Shown here: piece by piece, positions 18,662 to 39,510 of the stretch
How positions within the stretch are numbered: position 1 is the first letter of the stretch
Layout of the letters: each line of letters begins with the position of its first letter
Assembly (NCBI GenBank): GCA_031269825.1
Contig: JAISYP010000112.1
Coordinates: 1 to 41,087, forward strand
Length of the DNA: 41,087 bases
Source of the DNA: Deltaproteobacteria bacterium
Lineage (GTDB): Bacteria; Desulfobacterota; Desulfarculia; Adiutricales; Adiutricaceae
Direction of reading: 5' to 3'
The notes under the pieces: generated by a model
Databases searched by the model: none
The model's input: only the letters and a program-made list of their open reading frames with translations
Told to the model about the DNA's origin: nothing
Position numbers and translations under genes: made by a program

Positions 18662-20065
18662 ATGGCCAGCTTGAGCTTGTTGGACAAACTTTGGGAAGCC
18701 CACGTGGTGGATCGCGCCCCTGGGCGACCTGACTTGTTATATATAGACCGTCATCTTATCCATGAGGTCACTTCCAACCAGGCCTTTGACGGGTTGCGGG
18801 CGGCGGGCCGACAGGTTAGGCGGCCGGATCTTACCTGTGGGGTCATTGACCACTCCATACCCACCGACGATCGTAGGCGGCCCTTGAAAGACCAGATAGC
18901 CGAGGCTCAATTGGCGGCTCTGGAAAAGAATCAGGCCGAGTTCGGGATTCGGACTTTTTTTGGGGTAACGGATCGCCGGCAGGGGGTTATCCACGTGACC
19001 ATGCCTGAGCAGGGGTTAATTTTACCAGGCCACTCGGTGGTTTGTGGCGACAGCCACACGGCCACGCACGGGGCTTTGGGAGCCTTGGCTTTTGGAATTG
19101 GCACCAGTGAGGTGGAGCATGTCCTGGCCACCCAAACTTTGGCGCAGTATAAACCGAAGGCTCTTTCGGTTTTGGTCACGGGCTCGCTGTCGGCTGGGGT
19201 GACGGGCAAAGATCTCGTTTTGGATATTATTAACCGCCTGGGGGTCTCGGGGGGCGTGGGTTACGCCTTGGAGTACCGGGGGGAAGCGGTGACGGCTTTG
19301 TCCATGGAGGGGCGTTTGACTTTATCCAACATGGCCATTGAGTGCGGGGCTCGGATGGGGTTGATCGCCCCGGATGAGACGACGTTCGGGTATATTTTTG
19401 GCCGTCCGTACGCTCCCCAGGGCGAAGATTTCGCGGCGGCCAAGAAAGTCTGGCTAGAATTAAAAAGCGATTCGGATCATGTTTTCGCTAAATCCTTGGT
19501 CGTGATTGGCTCCGAGGTCGCCGCGCGAGTGACCTGGGGCACCAACCCCGCCCAAAGCGTGCCTTTGGGGGAGGTAGTGCCGGATCCGGCTTCTTACCAA
19601 AACCCCAACGAGCGCGAGGCGGCCGTGAACGCTTTGGCTTACCAAGGTTTAACCCCCGGCGTGGCTTTGGCTGACGTGCCGGTGGATTATGTTTTCATTG
19701 GTTCCTGCACCAATGGTCGGCTTGAGGATTTGACCCAGGCGGCCGAGATCTTAAAGTCGCGTCGGGTTAAGGCTGGGGTCAAGGCCTTGGTGGTTCCCGG
19801 CTCGGGGATCATCAAAAAACAGGCCGAGGAACTGGGGTTAGCCGACATTTTTAAAGCCGCCGGGTGCCAGTGGCGAGAACCGGGTTGCTCGATGTGCCTG
19901 GCGATGAACCCGGATCTGGTTCCCGCCGGGGCTAGGTGCGTCAGCACCTCAAATCGAAATTTTGAGGGTCGCCAAGGACGGGGGGCTTTGACTCATTTGG
20001 CTAGCCCGGCCACGGCCGCGGCCGCGGCCATAGCCGGGCGTATTGTGGGCCCGGCGGCTCTGTAG
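18662..20065 (+). CDS. leuC: 3-isopropylmalate dehydratase large subunit
   Basis: Large subunit of isopropylmalate isomerase, which converts 2-isopropylmalate to 3-isopropylmalate in leucine synthesis. Its 467 residues match the bacterial LeuC type of E. coli. The aconitase-fold landmarks are present: CGDSHTATHGALGALAFGIG, GTSEVEHVLATQTL, and the 4Fe-4S ligands in GSCTNGRLEDL and PGCSMCLAMNPD, followed by STSNRNFEGRQG. The enzyme needs the small subunit LeuD, but no leuD, leuA or leuB is in the window; the next gene is a signalling protein. An AAGGA lies upstream of the ATG with a long spacer (13 nt). Confidence 0.96.
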   Translation: MASLSLLDKLWEAHVVDRAPGRPDLLYIDRHLIHEVTSNQAFDGLRAAGRQVRRPDLTCGVIDHSIPTDDRRRPLKDQIAEAQLAALEKNQAEFGIRTFFGVTDRRQGVIHVTMPEQGLILPGHSVVCGDSHTATHGALGALAFGIGTSEVEHVLATQTLAQYKPKALSVLVTGSLSAGVTGKDLVLDIINRLGVSGGVGYALEYRGEAVTALSMEGRLTLSNMAIECGARMGLIAPDETTFGYIFGRPYAPQGEDFAAAKKVWLELKSDSDHVFAKSLVVIGSEVAARVTWGTNPAQSVPLGEVVPDPASYQNPNEREAAVNALAYQGLTPGVALADVPVDYVFIGSCTNGRLEDLTQAAEILKSRRVKAGVKALVVPGSGIIKKQAEELGLADIFKAAGCQWREPGCSMCLAMNPDLVPAGARCVSTSNRNFEGRQGRGALTHLASPATAAAAAIAGRIVGPAAL

Positions 20066-25881: not shown

Positions 25882-26247
25882 ATGCCCTTTACCTATACGT
25901 TCCTGAAAAACCTAAAACACCCGGTTAATCTTAAAAAATATAAAAATTTCGATGGGTTATACCTATATTCCGCCCCTACGAGCCTTAAATCGTGGAGGTT
26001 TCACTACAGATTTTACGGCGAACTACAGACTTTAACTTTTGGAACTTATCCCCTGGTCTCCATTAAGGAGGCCAGGGATAAATTGGTTGAAGCCAAACGC
26101 TCGCCTAAGGCGGGCCTTAACCCGGCTCTTGAGAAAAAACGCCTTAATGAGGCCGAAAAAATGAAACGGAGGCGGATTCATATCGTTCCTCTGGCCAAGC
26201 AAGTTCTTGATAAAATCAATAAACTCAGATTGACTACCATCTATTGA
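25882..26247 (+). pseudogene. P4-type integrase with an internal deletion
   Basis: A 121-codon open frame. Residues 1-95 are the DUF4102 arm-binding domain of P4-like integrases (FDGLYLYSAPTSLKSWRFHY, then TFGTYPLVSIKEARDKL, then NPALEKK). They are followed at once by MKRRRIHIVPLAKQVLDKIN, which matches the R-x-HxVPLSxQA segment of the catalytic core about 200 residues further on in intact proteins. The core-binding domain and the first catalytic Arg are missing and no Tyr box remains, so it cannot recombine DNA. The deletion kept the frame open. Confidence 0.8.
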
Positions 26248-26543
26248 TACAAGGAAACTTAGCGATAGGTGATTTTTTTTGCCCGAAATGGCTTGATTTC
26301 AAGGGGTTTTTGGGGTATTGATTGGACATGGAGGGGCCACCGGCGGAACGTGGCGGAGTGGATTCAGTGGTGCTGCCGTCTAGGCGGCGGCTACTGTTCA
26401 AAAATTTGCCTGAAAACGCGCGCCCCTCGCGTCAGGGGTGTTCATTTTCAAGGTCAGGCGGTTCGCCACCACTTCAGCGTGGCGAGGCGAAGACGAGGCG
26501 CGAGGCTAAGGTTTTTTTCGCAAAGCCCCGAGCGGCGATACGC

Positions 26544-26549
26544 TATACT
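26544..26549 (+). promoter_or_regulatory. Possible -10 box for the ABC-F leader
   Basis: TATACT, 28 bp upstream of the leader-peptide ribosome site, places a start near 26556. No good -35 is seen (TTCGCA is too far), so this is a weak call. Confidence 0.3.
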
Positions 26550-26576
26550 ATCCCTGTTCGAGAAATTTAGAGAAAA

Positions 26577-26741
26577 AAGGAGTCGGAGGCGTGAAGATAA
26601 CTTCCTGACATAATGTATGGGTGACAAACGAATCCTACCGTTTCGCGCCCTTGTGAGGAAGTTTGTTCAGACACGCCGTAACGCCATTCATATCGCGCTG
26701 AGCCGCGGAATTAGCTTCCTCGAGGTTTGTTTATTGAGGAG
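26577..26741 (+). promoter_or_regulatory. Predicted translational attenuator of the ABC-F gene
   Basis: Four segments can pair in two exclusive ways. Segment 1 AACTTCCT (26599-26606) pairs with segment 2 AGGAAGTT (26656-26663), with ACA/TGT extending past one mismatch. Segment 2 as GAGGAAG (26655-26661) also pairs with segment 3 CTTCCTC (26715-26721), with flanking G-U and A-T pairs. Segment 3 as TTCCTC also pairs with segment 4 GAGGAG (26736-26741), the ribosome site of the ABC-F gene. Segment 1 overlaps the last codons and stop of a five-codon leader peptide. Ribosomes stalled on the leader would free segment 2 to take segment 3 and expose the ribosome site. Pairings are visible; the induction is inferred from erm-type attenuators. 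Confidence 0.6.
26591..26608 (+). CDS. Leader peptide of the attenuator (MKITS)
   Basis: GTG-AAG-ATA-ACT-TCC-TGA with ribosome site AAGGAG (26577-26582) 8 nt upstream. The ACT, TCC and stop codons lie inside segment 1 of the attenuator stem, so translation would open it. A second tiny frame ATG-TAT-GGG-TGA at 26613-26624 has no ribosome site. Confidence 0.45.
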   Translation: MKITS

Positions 26742-26750
26742 ATAATAAAA

Positions 26751-28214
26751 ATGGCGATGATCGCGATAAACAATTTGACATTCGCGTGGGAAGGCAAGGC
26801 TGAGAACGTCTTTTCGAACGAGTCCCTCATCCTTGACACAGACTGGCGCGTCGGCTTGATTGGGCGCAACGGGCGGGGCAAGACCACCTTGCTCAGGCTC
26901 CTCGCGGAATCTGACTCCATGCCCCACGAAGGGACGATCTCCTCACCCGCCGGCTTTCGGTATTTCCCGTTTGTAATAAATGAGCCATCAAAAAACACGA
27001 TGGATATCATAGATGAGATATGCCCCGCGCGCGAGTTTTGGGAACTGCGCCGCGAGGCGAATTTGCTTGGAGTGTCGGAAGACGTTCTGCTTCGGCCATT
27101 CGACACGCTCAGCCCCGGGGAACGCGCCAAGACACTGCTCGCGACCATGTTCATCGGCGGCGACGAATTCGTCCTTCTCGATGAGCCGACCAACCACCTC
27201 GACGACGATGGGAAGCTGTCCGTTACCAATTATCTGCGGTCAAAGAAGGGCTTTATAGTGGTTTCGCATGACCGCGGGCTTCTCGATTCTGTCTGCGACC
27301 ACATCGTGTCCATAGGGAAATCCGAGGTGGAAGTAATGGCGGGGAACTATTCGACATGGGCGGAAGAAAAAATCCGGCGCGACCGCGGAAGCGTCGCCGA
27401 GAATGAGCGCCTTAGAAAAGACGTTCGTCGCATGAAGGAGGCCGCCCGGCGCGCGGCGGAATGGTCCAACAAGGTCGAGGGGAGCAAGTACGGAAATGGG
27501 CCTGTCGACCGTGGGTTCATAGGCCATAAGTCCGCCAAGCTCATGAAGCGCTCAAAGGCCATCAAGGCGCGCCAAATTGAGGCGGCGGCCAAGACGCGGG
27601 GGCTACTGAAAGACATCGACACGCCGGGGAGTCTGAAGATCGCGCCTCTCGCCCATCATTCGGATACGCTTGTTGAGATAAGGGAGATGGAGTTCGAGCG
27701 CCTTCGCGGGAAGACCATCGACCTTCTTGTCCGAAAAGGCGACAGGATTGCCCTCACTGGCGGGAATGGCGCGGGGAAATCGAGCGTACTCAAGGCGATT
27801 GTGGGAGAGCTGGCGCCACGCGCCGGAACCGTGAAAACCGCGAGCGGGCTCGTCATTTCCTATATCCCTCAAGAAATGGCGGCGCTGTCAGGCGGCGTCC
27901 GCCACTTTGCGCGTGAAAGCGGAATAGATCTGACTCTGCTTTTGTCCATCATGGCGAATCTCGGTGTCCCTAGCGGCGAGTTCGACGCGGATATTTCCCG
28001 CTTTAGCGACGGACAGAAAAGGAAGCTGCTTTTGGCGAAAAGCCTCTGCGAATCCGCGCATCTATATCTTTGGGACGAGCCTCTGAACTTTATCGACATC
28101 ATCTCGCGCGAGCAGATTGAGGACGTGATCTTGGAGTACGCCCCGACAATGGTGTTCGTCGAGCACGACGCCGTCTTCGCGTCACGGGTCTCGACACGCG
28201 CCATTGGGATTTGA
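26751..28214 (+). CDS. ABC-F ribosome-protection protein, Lsa type
   Basis: A soluble twin-ATPase of the antibiotic-resistance ABC-F group, closest in motifs to Lsa proteins, which displace lincosamides, pleuromutilins or streptogramin A from the ribosome. Domain 1 has GRNGRGKTT, LSPGERAKT and LLDEPTNHLD. A linker of about 85 residues (RKDVRRMKEAARRAAEWSNK, then IGHKSAKLMKRSKAI) follows. Domain 2 has GGNGAGKSS, FSDGQKRKL and LWDEPLNFID. There are no membrane segments. I start it at the ATG at 26751, 9 nt after GAGGAG; a TTG at 26727 would include the ribosome site. Third-position GC and Arg CGC use are well above neighbouring genes, suggesting recent transfer. It is the only intact gene of the island and is preceded by an attenuator-like leader. 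The resistance spectrum cannot be read from sequence. Confidence 0.9.
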   Translation: MAMIAINNLTFAWEGKAENVFSNESLILDTDWRVGLIGRNGRGKTTLLRLLAESDSMPHEGTISSPAGFRYFPFVINEPSKNTMDIIDEICPAREFWELRREANLLGVSEDVLLRPFDTLSPGERAKTLLATMFIGGDEFVLLDEPTNHLDDDGKLSVTNYLRSKKGFIVVSHDRGLLDSVCDHIVSIGKSEVEVMAGNYSTWAEEKIRRDRGSVAENERLRKDVRRMKEAARRAAEWSNKVEGSKYGNGPVDRGFIGHKSAKLMKRSKAIKARQIEAAAKTRGLLKDIDTPGSLKIAPLAHHSDTLVEIREMEFERLRGKTIDLLVRKGDRIALTGGNGAGKSSVLKAIVGELAPRAGTVKTASGLVISYIPQEMAALSGGVRHFARESGIDLTLLLSIMANLGVPSGEFDADISRFSDGQKRKLLLAKSLCESAHLYLWDEPLNFIDIISREQIEDVILEYAPTMVFVEHDAVFASRVSTRAIGI

Positions 28215-28388
28215 TGGATTCAAGAAGGGCCGCCGTTGCCTACGTCCCCGCGAGGCGGAGTCGCGCTGATGTCCGATAGGGATATTCCGCCACGGAGGGG
28301 CGCGATGAACAAGCAACCTGCTGGCGCGCGGACTGTCAGGCGTGGATTTCCGCGCCATCCTTGAAAAGGAAAAGGTAATGCCGCCGGT

Positions 28389-30375: not shown

Positions 30376-33300
30376 ATGGGCAAAGTTAATGGCCGACTGT
30401 TTGGAACGATTCTCCACCCTTTGGGCGGGGTGGGGATTGTTTTGGCGGTCAGCTTATCCTTGATTTTTGGATGGAATGGGAACCTCTTGGCCCAGAACTA
30501 CACTATCAATCCGGGCGGCAATAATAGCGGAACTACAATGGATATCCTTGATCCTAAAGTAGGCGTTAATGTAACTGTCCCATCGGCCAGCCCATCTAAT
30601 AATATAGTGAATATTTTTGAAAACATAACCGAGGCCGAAATCCAAGGCTTTGTGGGGGGCTTCAAAAATGGTCAAGACTCTATAAATAACACCATAAATA
30701 TTAACGCGAGTGGTAATGTCACTGGCCAGGTCTTTGGTGGACTAGCCAATAACACTAATAACGCGATTAATAACAGAGTCATTGTTAACACGACCAGTAG
30801 CGATACTGGAGTTTGGATGAACGGTTCTGACATTGGTGGTAACGTTATTGGTGGTGGCGTTGTCAGCGGCCTCGCGGAAAATAACACGGTGACTTTACTA
30901 AATGGCACGATAGAAGGAAATTTGGTCGGTGGCCTCACCACTTTAAATGGAACGGTTCGTAATAACACGGCTATTGTCGATGGAACTGACGCCAATGTAA
31001 CAGATGTGTTTGGCGCTCAATCGTATGACACCGGTATATTGTTAGAGAACAAAGTTATCATATACAATGGAACGATCAATAATAATATTTATGGAGCGGC
31101 CCTGGCGAACGCAACGGGAACGGTCGCCAATAACAGTGTCACAATTTATAACGCCACCGTCGAGGGCAATATATTTGGTGGGTTTAATGATAATCTGTCC
31201 ACGGCTAACTCTACCAATGTAATCGGAAACAAGGTCGTTATTCATGGTGGCGATTTTTCTGGAAATATAACTGGTGGTCGTAGTGGCTCTGGTCAATCGG
31301 ATGGCAACTCCGTGGAAATTGACGATACCACTCACAATGTCTCGACAATCGCGGCGGACACCAATGTTTATGGCGGTTACAGCTCCAATGGCTCCGCTAG
31401 ATCTAATAGCGTAATTATCCATGAATTGGCGGATATTTTCCAAGCGGATACCATCGCCGGTGGTTATTCCGAATCAGACCCGACCGGTAACGTCTCTGAT
31501 AACAAAGTAGACGTGACTTTTGTTAATGTCAGTAATATTTATGGTGGTTACGCTAAATCTGGAAATCTGACCAACAACAATGTGACGGTGAAAAAGTCCG
31601 AAATTTCTGGGGATGTGGCCGCCGGTTACGCCAATATAAAAGGCGATGTTGAAGGCGGTTATCTTTTCCTGGAAGACACTAAAGTCACGGGCGATATCGT
31701 TGGTGGCTATAGCGGCAATGGTTCGGCGCGCCGTAATGAGGTCATCGTCTCAGACAGTGATGATGTCGGTAATATTTATGGTGGTTATAGCGACAATGGA
31801 ACGGTTTCCTTTAATAAAGTGTCATTTTTAAACAATAGCGTCTCGACTGGAAACGTTACTGGTGGACACAGCGAATTGGGCGAGGTCTTCAATAACACGG
31901 TTAATATTATGGGCAAAGAAGTTGGCGGCGATGTAATTGGCGGTTATAGCGAGAAGGGAATCGCGAAATTTAATGAAGTTTACGTTTGGTCAGGGCAAGT
32001 TAATGGCAGCGTTATGGGTGGGACTAGTTTAGATGGCGCCGTGGAAGGAAACTATGTCTTCGCCTCAGATGTCAAGGTGATTGGCGATATTTACGGCGGT
32101 TACGCCACCAATGGCGCTTCTTCGAATAATACTGTCGTCGTCTCCAATACGACCTTCGCTAATTTGTCTGGTGGTTATAGCTCTGGCCACGCTTCGGACA
32201 ACAAGGTGCTCGCCTATAATATTAATGGAACCAACGTCTATGGTGGTTATAGCCAGAATGGCAACGCCACCAATAACTACGTGGTACTTAGCGACTCCGC
32301 CAATTTAACCGGCTTATATGGTGGTCGCGCCGCTTCTGGGGACAGTTATACTGGCAACACGCTTTTTGTTAATGAATATAGTAACGAGAATTCCAATATC
32401 GGCAAGGTGGCTAATTTCCAATATTATCAATTCTATCTGCCCGCCTCGGTCGCCGATGGGTTCGCGGCCTTAAAGGCCACTGACATTGATTTGGGGGCGA
32501 CCCCAGTTGTTGACAGTATCGATGTTGACGCTGGAGCCCAGATCGGCTTTGGCGACACGATTGTCTTGATGTCCGCGACCAACGAGATCGTTGGCGCGGA
32601 AAATATAGACACGGACGCGCGGTATGTTGGCTCCTATGGTTATTTGTTCCATTATGGCTACGAGCTTGGCGTGGAAGACGATGGTCATCAATTAGTGGCC
32701 AAGGTCATTTCATCGCCCTCTGTGACTAGTCACTCCAAGATTGTGACCGAAACCTCGGCCGCCCGTCTAGCTTTTGTCAACCAAGCCCAGGACTATCTCG
32801 CGGATAAGGGGATAAGTTTAGCCAAAGCCCGTTCGGCCACGGAGAATGGCTTGGGCGTGTTCACGGGAGTCAGTGGCGGGAAAAACCGTTATGACACCGG
32901 TTCCCATGTGGATCTGACGGGGTACAACGCTCTTATTGGCGTGTCCATGAGCAATTTTTTTGACCAGAACCGCTTAACGGTCGGTTTGTTTGGCGAGCTG
33001 GGCTATGGTAGCTATGATTCCTTTGTTCCCATCCCAGGAGCTGAGACCGCGGAGGCGGAAGGCGATGTTTCCTACGTGGGCGGGGGCGTATTGAGTCGTT
33101 ATGATATTCAGTCCAGCGCTGGAACCCTGTATCTGGAAGGTTCCGCTCGATTCGGTAACGCTAAGGCGGATTTTATGGATAAAAAGAACCGTTTCGCCAA
33201 CCGTCGGGTCAGTTTCAAGACTTCTGGAAAATATTTTGGAGCCCACGCGGGCGTTGGTTATGACCTGCGCGTGGCTGAGGATTTGGGCGTAGACGTGTAC

Positions 33301-33666
33301 TTGAAATATCTGTGGAACCGGCAGAGTGGCGGGAAAGAGTCGGTCTTCGGACAAAAGTTCTCCCTTGATGACGCCGATTCTTCCCGGGTTAAGGCGGGAG
33401 CTCGCGTCAATTACAACTACAGTGATTCCATCAGGCCCTACGTTGGTGGCGCCTATATTCAAGAGACTAGCGGCGAGGCCGACGCCAGCGTTTATGGGGT
33501 TAGTCTGCCCAACGCTAGTCTAAAGGGGAGCTCGGCTCTAGCCGAATTAGGCGTGACTTTGTTGTCCAGTGACTCGTTCCCCATCAGCCTAGACGCCGGG
33601 GTTCAAGGTTATTTCGGTATCCGGCGAGGCCTATCCGGCACTTTGGACATTAAATACGAGTTCTAA
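30376..33666 (+). CDS. Autotransporter adhesin-like outer-membrane protein
   Basis: A 1096-residue type V secretion protein. An extended signal peptide (residues 1-40, hydrophobic core VGIVLAVSLSLIFGW) is followed by a passenger of about 650 residues. It has at least a dozen degenerate repeats of 30-40 residues built around N-x-V...G-(N/D)-(I/V)-Y-GGYS-x-x-G, a beta-helix pattern very rich in Asn, Gly, Val and Ser. From about residue 800 the sequence becomes an autotransporter beta-barrel (LTGYNALIGVSMS, then RPYVGGAYIQE) ending in LDIKYEF, the terminal Phe expected for Bam recognition. AAGGAG is 6 nt before the ATG. A GC hairpin and a 13-bp hairpin follow. It is isolated between AT-rich spacers. 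The ligand is unknown. Confidence 0.92.
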   Translation: MGKVNGRLFGTILHPLGGVGIVLAVSLSLIFGWNGNLLAQNYTINPGGNNSGTTMDILDPKVGVNVTVPSASPSNNIVNIFENITEAEIQGFVGGFKNGQDSINNTININASGNVTGQVFGGLANNTNNAINNRVIVNTTSSDTGVWMNGSDIGGNVIGGGVVSGLAENNTVTLLNGTIEGNLVGGLTTLNGTVRNNTAIVDGTDANVTDVFGAQSYDTGILLENKVIIYNGTINNNIYGAALANATGTVANNSVTIYNATVEGNIFGGFNDNLSTANSTNVIGNKVVIHGGDFSGNITGGRSGSGQSDGNSVEIDDTTHNVSTIAADTNVYGGYSSNGSARSNSVIIHELADIFQADTIAGGYSESDPTGNVSDNKVDVTFVNVSNIYGGYAKSGNLTNNNVTVKKSEISGDVAAGYANIKGDVEGGYLFLEDTKVTGDIVGGYSGNGSARRNEVIVSDSDDVGNIYGGYSDNGTVSFNKVSFLNNSVSTGNVTGGHSELGEVFNNTVNIMGKEVGGDVIGGYSEKGIAKFNEVYVWSGQVNGSVMGGTSLDGAVEGNYVFASDVKVIGDIYGGYATNGASSNNTVVVSNTTFANLSGGYSSGHASDNKVLAYNINGTNVYGGYSQNGNATNNYVVLSDSANLTGLYGGRAASGDSYTGNTLFVNEYSNENSNIGKVANFQYYQFYLPASVADGFAALKATDIDLGATPVVDSIDVDAGAQIGFGDTIVLMSATNEIVGAENIDTDARYVGSYGYLFHYGYELGVEDDGHQLVAKVISSPSVTSHSKIVTETSAARLAFVNQAQDYLADKGISLAKARSATENGLGVFTGVSGGKNRYDTGSHVDLTGYNALIGVSMSNFFDQNRLTVGLFGELGYGSYDSFVPIPGAETAEAEGDVSYVGGGVLSRYDIQSSAGTLYLEGSARFGNAKADFMDKKNRFANRRVSFKTSGKYFGAHAGVGYDLRVAEDLGVDVYLKYLWNRQSGGKESVFGQKFSLDDADSSRVKAGARVNYNYSDSIRPYVGGAYIQETSGEADASVYGVSLPNASLKGSSALAELGVTLLSSDSFPISLDAGVQGYFGIRRGLSGTLDIKYEF

Positions 33667-38088: not shown

Positions 38089-39510
38089 TTATCGTCTGGC
38101 CTTTAAAATGGCCAGAGCCATGGCCGCGGCCGTGGCTCCGTTTAAGGATTCCACTTGGGGATTCATGGGGATGGCTATTTTTTTTTCTCTCGGCCACAGA
38201 CTATCCAGGCCCGGGCCTTCTACGCCTAAAGCCAACCCCAAGCCTTTGGGTAAGTTGGCCTGGAAAATATTGTCGCCTCGGGGGGAGAGGGCGTAAATGT
38301 CCGCTCGCCCTAAATCTGGTAAACTTCGGTAACTAGGGCCTTGAAAAAGGGGCGTCTGGAAAACGGCTGGCCCGGCGGCGCGCAAGGCTCGGAAATGGAA
38401 AGGACTGGCCGCTTCCGTTAGCAAAACCACCGCGGTTTCCATGGCCGCGGCGGAACGAATGACGGCCCCCACGTTTTTGGGATCTTGGAAAGGAACTAAA
38501 AGCCAGGGCGATGGTTGGATTTGAGTCTCGTCCCAGTCCAACAAAGGCGGGGTTTTGAGCCAAATGATCGGCGGGCCGGTTCCTAAGACATCTAGTTCTG
38601 GGAAAATCTCGGGTCGGAGAAAAAAAACTGGCCAGTGACTTTTGATGGTCAAATTGGCCAGATCCCGGGGGTTAGTGGCGATAATCCCCAGGATCCGATC
38701 GCCCTGGTTTAATAACAGCTCTTGGGTAATTTTAGCCCCAAAAGCCAGCGTCTGGCCTTGACGCCGTTGGTGACGGCCTTCTAAAAGCTTAAGCCACGAG
38801 CGGAATCGGGGGTTTTGTGGACTGGCTATTTCCGTGACGCGTGGGGTAGGGGTCTTGGGTTGGCTCGGGGTTTTTTTGGTTAAAGACAACAAAGAGCGTT
38901 TATGAGATCCAACCTGGTAGTACTTTACGGCTAAATTGGTAAAATTGGCCCAGGCGGAATTTTTCGCGGCGTCGGCGATCTCTTGGTCGATCATGGGCCC
39001 TTTGAGGACAAACAGCTGTCCTTTTTGGGGTAAGATCGTCGCGGCTAGTTCGACAATCTCCGGTAAAGGGCCAAAATCTCGGGTTATAATGGCATCAATA
39101 AGGCCGGGGAAGCTAGATCCTACTTTGTGAGGATAAACCTGGACATTGGTCAATCCTAATAGGTCAATGGCCTCTTCCAAAAAGGCGAGTCTTTTTAAGC
39201 GGGGTTCCGCGAGGATAACGCGCCAATGAGGGCGTCGGATGGCCAGGGGTAAACCAGGAAAACCAGCCCCCGAGCCCAGATCCAGGAGCGTTCCTGGCTC
39301 GGGCAGGAAATCGGCCACCAAGGCTGAGTCCAGGTAATGCTTGAGGATCAGCTGGTGAGGATTGGTTCTAGTTAGATCCAAATGATCGATGTTTTGGAGT
39401 AAGAGTTGATCCAGGCGTAAAAAGCGACGCCATTGAAGGTCGCTTAGTTCCACCCCAGCTAGGTTAAACTCCAACAACAGGTTCTTGGCTCGGTCTTTGG
39501 TGAAAAACAT
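38089..39510 (-). CDS. rsmG: RsmG-TrmH fusion: 16S rRNA G527 methyltransferase plus SPOUT methyltransferase
   Basis: One 473-residue frame joins two RNA methyltransferases. Residues 1-210 are RsmG/GidB, which makes m7G527 in 16S rRNA: LILKHYLDSALVADFLP, LLDLGSGAGFPGLPLAI, RDFGPLPEIVELA. Residues 225-473 are a TrmH/SpoU-type SPOUT enzyme (2'-O-methylation): substrate domain EIASPQNPRFRSWLKLLEGR, then motif 1 DPKNVGAVIRSA, motif 2 LALGVEGPGL and motif 3 IPMNPQVESLNGATAAAMAL. No stop or frameshift lies between them. Motif 3 reads NGATAAA where VSVAAA is usual. AAGGAAA precedes the ATG. rsmG normally sits beside parA/parB near oriC; here parS sites lie 1.1 kb away but no parAB is in the window. 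Confidence 0.9.
   Translation of the reverse strand: MFFTKDRAKNLLLEFNLAGVELSDLQWRRFLRLDQLLLQNIDHLDLTRTNPHQLILKHYLDSALVADFLPEPGTLLDLGSGAGFPGLPLAIRRPHWRVILAEPRLKRLAFLEEAIDLLGLTNVQVYPHKVGSSFPGLIDAIITRDFGPLPEIVELAATILPQKGQLFVLKGPMIDQEIADAAKNSAWANFTNLAVKYYQVGSHKRSLLSLTKKTPSQPKTPTPRVTEIASPQNPRFRSWLKLLEGRHQRRQGQTLAFGAKITQELLLNQGDRILGIIATNPRDLANLTIKSHWPVFFLRPEIFPELDVLGTGPPIIWLKTPPLLDWDETQIQPSPWLLVPFQDPKNVGAVIRSAAAMETAVVLLTEAASPFHFRALRAAGPAVFQTPLFQGPSYRSLPDLGRADIYALSPRGDNIFQANLPKGLGLALGVEGPGLDSLWPREKKIAIPMNPQVESLNGATAAAMALAILKARR

Follow-up and report, generated by a model that had tools for sequence, protein, structure and literature searches.

A putative ribosome-stalling attenuator in front of a deltaproteobacterial Lsa-type ABC-F gene and its kinship with clostridial Lsa leaders

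How is an Lsa-type ABC-F ribosome-protection gene controlled in a deltaproteobacterium, and where does its control region come from? The question is raised by a stretch of 41,087 nucleotides (assembly GCA_031269825.1, contig JAISYP010000112.1; hereafter the window), in which an earlier note had described an erm-like translational attenuator in front of such a gene, with a five-codon leader that it did not recognise and four exclusively pairing segments, in a Gram-negative, genome-reduced background. It has been shown that pleuromutilins, lincosamides and streptogramin A halt ribosomes at initiation or immediately after it, and that the leaders of vmlR, cplR and ARE5 respond to such initiation arrest (PMC9226507, PMC10201436, PMC12421871). 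The leader peptides are MIN for vmlR, MR[I/M] for cplR and MAGN for LsaA (PMC10201436), and MLV and MVGDDDISG for ARE5 genes, in which stalling takes place on the start codon of the leader (PMC12421871). In this paper, we argue from folding and comparison that a ribosome-stalling (uORF-type) attenuator probably controls the translation of the window's ABC-F gene, and we trace its likely relatives.

The best NCBIfam match of the gene product is ABCF_Lsa_all (E 5.6e-176, 586 bits); it also passes the ribo_prot_ABC_F model (399.6 bits vs a cut-off of 380), and its closest PDB structure is LsaA (7nhk, E 1.5e-110), in agreement with the earlier assignment. As its 586 bits lie below the curated cut-off of 750 of the NCBIfam Lsa family model NF000167, the gene is named Lsa-type, not Lsa. 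The gene downstream of the leader is thus an antibiotic-type ABC-F gene, as in the uORF-type ABC-F attenuators. A DNA search across 63 genomes of the class found just one relative, G001 (record JAISWW010000091.1, a deltaproteobacterial metagenome bin; locus L038/L009), whose ABC-F protein is 93% identical to that of the window; G028 (locus L010), from the same bacterial family, is a sister at ~50%.

The leader reads GTG-AAG-ATA-ACT-TCC-TGA, with its own ribosome site 8 nt 5' of the GTG (Table 1), just as the earlier note had it. Judged from the candidate -10 box, transcription would start near 26555-26557 and give a leader RNA of ~195 nt; no complete promoter match was scored at this box, and the sequence 5' of it differs in L009/L038 by indels. 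A mini-frame ATG-TAT-GGG-TGA (26613-26624) was set aside; it is kept in L038, but lacks a ribosome site.

Table 1. Features of the control region and its gene, in window coordinates
Feature	Position	Strand	Basis
Candidate -10 box TATACT	26544..26549	+	Read from sequence; kept in L009/L038
Ribosome site AGGAG of the leader	26578..26582	+	Sequence; kept in the 93% relative
Five-codon leader MKITS, GTG start	26591..26608	+	Sequence; MKITF in L038, MKIYS in L010
Segment 1, AACTTCCT, within the leader end	26599..26606	+	Pairs with segment 2 in the minimum free energy (MFE) fold
Segment 2, GAGGAAGTT, common to helices 1:2 and 2:3	26655..26663	+	Folding
CGCCATT, partner of 26750-26756, covers the start codon	26682..26688	+	Fold; identical in the relative
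Remnant of an intrinsic terminator (GAGCCGCGGAATTAGCTTCCTCGAGG + TTTGTTTATT)	26700..26735	+	Resembles 22 clostridial terminators
Segment 3, CTTCCTCGA, 3' arm of the terminator remnant, complementary to the ribosome site	26715..26723	+	Folding
Segment 4, TTGAGGAG, holds the ABC-F ribosome site GAGGAG (26736-26741)	26734..26741	+	Folding
Lsa-type ABC-F ribosome-protection gene, 487 aa	26751..28214	+	NCBIfam profiles, LsaA structure match

Folding recovers the arrangement of four segments with exclusive pairings, segment 1 lying at the leader end. Helix 1:2 consists of 26599-26606:26656-26663 (8 bp), 26588-26593:26672-26677 (6 bp) and a 2-bp step, and helix 2:3 of 26655-26661:26715-26721 (7 bp). 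Helix 3:4 (26716-26723:26734-26741; 8 bp including two G-U) lies over GAGGAG; this pairing of segment 3 with the ribosome site, on which the earlier proposal depended, is contained in the MFE folds, and the layout is that of the erm type, i.e. four exclusive segments with the ribosome site inside 3:4. Two helices are additions to the earlier description: the 6-bp helix named above encloses the leader start, and a 7-bp helix, 26682-26688:26750-26756, also hides the ATG at 26751. With an MFE z of -2.3, the stretch 26556-26760 folds stably.

In the unmasked RNA, the probability of 3:4 is 0.98-1.0 once the ribosome site has been transcribed. When a ribosome whose P site holds the leader start is represented by masking its footprint, 26571-26606, the probability of 2:3 becomes 1.0 and that of 3:4 zero at all tried transcript ends from 26722 to 26750, and the mean accessibility of the ribosome site rises from 0.05 to 0.72 (transcript ending at 26750). 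A masked ribosome at the leader start thus moves the pairing from 3:4 to 2:3 in transcripts that end before the gene, and in folding a stall on the leader gives a fold permissive for expression. In masked transcripts ending at 26756-26760, 3:4 is favoured again (probability 0.8, with ~1 kcal/mol between the states), so that induction would hinge on which parts are synthesised first, or on longer transcripts; at an end of 26780 the probability of 2:3 is 0.78. Attenuators in general rely on the order of synthesis.

According to the mechanism that we propose, MKITS would be translated and released in the absence of drug, helices 1:2 and 3:4 would form to hide the ribosome site, and the second helix would hide the ABC-F start codon. 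A drug-bound ribosome at or just past the leader start, on the other hand, would cover ~26571-26606 and so segment 1; with the GTG in the P site, the end of the footprint would be the end of segment 1. Segment 2 would then capture segment 3 before segment 4 is synthesised, and the ribosome site would open. We infer that the leader is translated, that ribosomes stall at MKITS and, by analogy, that the ABC-F gene is drug-induced; pleuromutilins, lincosamides and streptogramin A would be the likely inducers because the leader is short and the gene belongs with the Lsa family.

The earlier note had looked to relatives for conservation of the paired segments, and all of them persist in the one close relative. 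In G001, segments 2, 3 and 4 and the start-codon helix are identical to those of the window, the single C-to-U change in segment 1 retains a G-U pair, and a 4-nt insertion sits in the 3:4 loop, while the differences between the two sequences cluster in the 5' arm of the hairpin preceding segment 3. The translational form of the control region is carried by these two genomes only.

The leader, which had seemed unfamiliar, is recognisably related to those of clostridial Lsa genes. Among the upstream regions of 105 homologues that we surveyed, about 30 clostridial Lsa genes have a leader M-x-x-x-S-C(-K/R); this pattern fits 33 of the 105 upstream regions vs 5.1 in shuffles, and the strict logic of leader, segment 2 and repeat fits 16 vs 1.45. 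The end of the clostridial leader, TTCCTGC or TTCTTGC, is complementary to a GCAGGAA further downstream, and recurs in the 3' arm of a U-tailed hairpin 5' of the Lsa gene; segment 1 of the window aligns with TTCCTGC. RNAalifold, run on an unaided alignment of 25 leaders, recovers the leader helix 1:2 and the terminator, with both sides changed somewhere in 12 of 18 pairs. The covariation scores of 1:2, 2:3 and the terminator each exceed those of 500/500 shuffles and of all slid controls, and segments 1 and 3 therefore both covary with segment 2. The terminators of the clostridial relatives and G028 have energies of -15 to -37 kcal/mol. To judge from these sequences, the clostridial Lsa genes and lsa(E) are transcription attenuators ending in a strong U-tailed terminator. 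In lsa(E) of E. faecium pY13 (L121), the leader MYNFSC lies at 238-258 and the U-tailed terminator at 413-443.

A covariance model, R1, trained on the clostridial leader hairpins finds lsa(E) with an E of 7.1e-08; its best match in the window falls at the exact place, with a score that is not significant (3.6 bits, E 0.32 in 1 kb). No leader match was obtained in the window or its relatives from Rfam 15 at gathering scores, and an M-x-x-x-S-C leader with a terminator was found neither there nor in the papers searched; the family appears to be wide and undescribed.

Other leaders were also seen in the survey. A short SD-preceded M-K leader is present in a total of 8 of 16 Lsa upstream regions of the host bacterial family vs 0.24 in shuffles, those in the separate Lsa clade of this family (L013, L016, L017, L019, L021) included. 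In L011 (G029), ATG-TAA is a candidate start-stop leader; it has a ribosome site, precedes a strong U-tailed hairpin and may be the minimal version of such a sensor. The Lsa homologues of Bacilli (L047, L050, L064, L066 and others) have a different, strongly conserved leader of 16-17 codons, MSxxTxVTHxxLRxSR, with a strong ribosome site, ~145 nt 5' of the Lsa gene. The Rfam sRNA ncr1575 (RF02452) lies at 2582-2799 of L047, just 5' of this leader and its Lsa-type gene, and may there belong to one control region with them instead of being a free sRNA.

The window resembles the clostridial family in the sequence of both the leader and the terminator remnant: none of 400 shuffles comes as close to clostridial leaders as its leader with the ribosome site, and none of 400 as close to 22 clostridial terminators as 26700-26735 (e.g. 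GAGCCGC-GGAATTAGC-TTCCT in the window vs GAGCCGCAGGAATTTGCTTTCCT in L039). By this homology its kin are the clostridial Lsa and lsa(E) leaders, and the kinship with erm that the earlier wording implied falls away. Segment 2 of the window, taken by itself, resembles its clostridial counterpart no more closely than shuffles do, and the terminator remnant of L038 is weaker (27 of 400 shuffles). The hairpin of the window has -6.2 kcal/mol and that of L038 -7.2 kcal/mol, with an interrupted U-run, so that neither has the intrinsic terminator that defines the clostridial Lsa and lsa(E) attenuators. The leader of G028, on the other hand, agrees with that of the window in 15 of 18 nt (0/5000 shuffles), and is followed by a full terminator (~-18 kcal/mol, nine consecutive U). 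The bearers of the leaders MKITS, MKITF and MKIYS (window, 93% relative and G028, respectively) form one clade with a support of 100 in the protein tree; this clade adjoins Firmicutes and stands apart from the main Lsa clade of the host family.

These relationships bear on whether the region is still a transcription attenuator, in which the hairpin 26702-26726 with TTTGTTTATT terminates with the aid of host factors and 2:3 is the antiterminator. The clostridial homologues and the sister G028 do end in a terminator, whose remnant is recognisable in the window; however, the weak hairpin and the interrupted U-run make this unlikely, and in L038 the 5' arm of the hairpin has diverged further whereas the arm that pairs with the ribosome site is unchanged. 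The best reading of these sequences is that the window's translational attenuator arose from a transcription attenuator like those of clostridial Lsa genes, a direction of evolution that the comparison suggests; one loss of termination with capture of the ribosome site would be an economical account. With slightly better than even confidence, we would further propose that the leader was acquired with the gene from Gram-positives and rebuilt in a Gram-negative from a transcription into a pure translation attenuator, the dead terminator arm now covering the ribosome site. It would then be an antibiotic-sensing ABC-F attenuator native to deltaproteobacteria, and a branch of a wide leader family that also controls the plasmid-borne lsa(E).

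A less probable alternative still is that the structure regulates translation without drugs, either by sensing slow translation in general or as a hairpin akin to a thermosensor. The leader is indeed short and free of known macrolide arrest motifs, and both 3:4 and the start-codon helix are stable; but the gene is of the antibiotic type, a ribosome mask switches the fold, and the ABC-F leaders that have been studied respond to initiation-stopping drugs (PMC10201436, PMC9226507, PMC12421871). Chance complementarity with no regulation at all is very improbable. The linked set of 1:2, 2:3 and 3:4 (8, 7 and 5 uninterrupted Watson-Crick pairs) occurs in 0/3000 dinucleotide shuffles, although under a harsher null, that of arbitrary stretches of the window, a set of equal length is found in 14/1000, and paired sites are overall not significantly less substituted than unpaired ones between the window and G001 (Fisher p 0.38, from two sequences that give the comparison no power). 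Against chance, a closed start with an equally large change in accessibility on masking arose in 0/600 shuffles, and leader and hairpin resemble a covarying family. Coupling of the gene to the open 43-codon frame 26617-26745, which ends at the ABC-F ribosome site, instead of to the five-codon leader can practically be dismissed, as this frame has no ribosome site and in L038 its ATG is ACG and the 4-nt insertion shifts the frame.

The contig itself is genuinely deltaproteobacterial, in line with the Gram-negative background claimed earlier. The possibility of a misbinned clostridial contig was refuted by the best homologues of the genes on either side of the ABC-F gene, which belong to the same genus (60-87% identity): the aconitase at 18662-20065 has homologues of 79-87% identity in same-genus genomes, and the protein at 38089-39510 of 60-76%. 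The genome, at 3.1 Mb and 83% completeness, gives no ground for calling the background genome-reduced. The ABC-F protein is 93% identical in G001 although flanking markers are 76-87% identical, the two loci have only 26343-28327 in common, and a truncated tyrosine-integrase fragment (25882-26247) lies just 5' of this shared block; the two-kb unit therefore appears to have moved horizontally. Imperfect inverted repeats of 14 nt (26333-26346/28381-28394) flank the block in the window; none were seen in the flanks of L038. Elsewhere in the window, 30376-33666 is an open frame of 1096 codons with zero Pfam matches.

The published ABC-F attenuators that we compared are Gram-positive and mostly transcriptional. 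If our reading is true, the window holds an ABC-F attenuator in a gut Gram-negative that acts at translation alone. Since both evolutionary end states and the terminator-bearing sister G028 are available, the step from a terminator to control of the ribosome site could then be tested. Furthermore, the leader family at clostridial Lsa genes and at the clinically relevant, mobile lsa(E) predicts drug-inducible expression of these genes.

Among known systems, vmlR, cplR, lmo0919 and LsaA (MAGN) resemble the window in that their leader of 3-5 codons lies in a 5' hairpin and the gene's ribosome site is likewise held in a hairpin, and for vmlR and cplR induction when drugs stop ribosomes on the leader has been published. 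Unlike the window, however, vmlR and cplR join a terminator to translation control, and all four have other leader sequences and Gram-positive hosts. The erm switches of the ermC type share the four segments, with 3:4 hiding and 2:3 freeing the ribosome site, so that the earlier designation as erm-like stands for the layout of a four-segment translation switch, while the kinship lies with Lsa leaders. The window is not filed under erm because its gene is an ABC-F gene, not a 23S rRNA methyltransferase; in addition, its 5-codon leader lacks a macrolide arrest motif and appears to descend from Lsa leaders. With the clostridial Lsa and lsa(E) attenuators it has in common an Lsa-type gene, a short leader ending in TTCCTG, exclusive 1:2 and 2:3, and a segment 3 that is the 3' arm of the terminator homologue; in contrast to them, its leader is one to two codons shorter, with TGA for TGC, a working terminator is lacking, and the partner of segment 3 is the ribosome site. 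As the terminator is absent, we regard the window's attenuator as a derivative of this family, not as a member. The ermC-type switches are thus closest to it in working, and the clostridial Lsa leaders, by our analysis, closest in descent.
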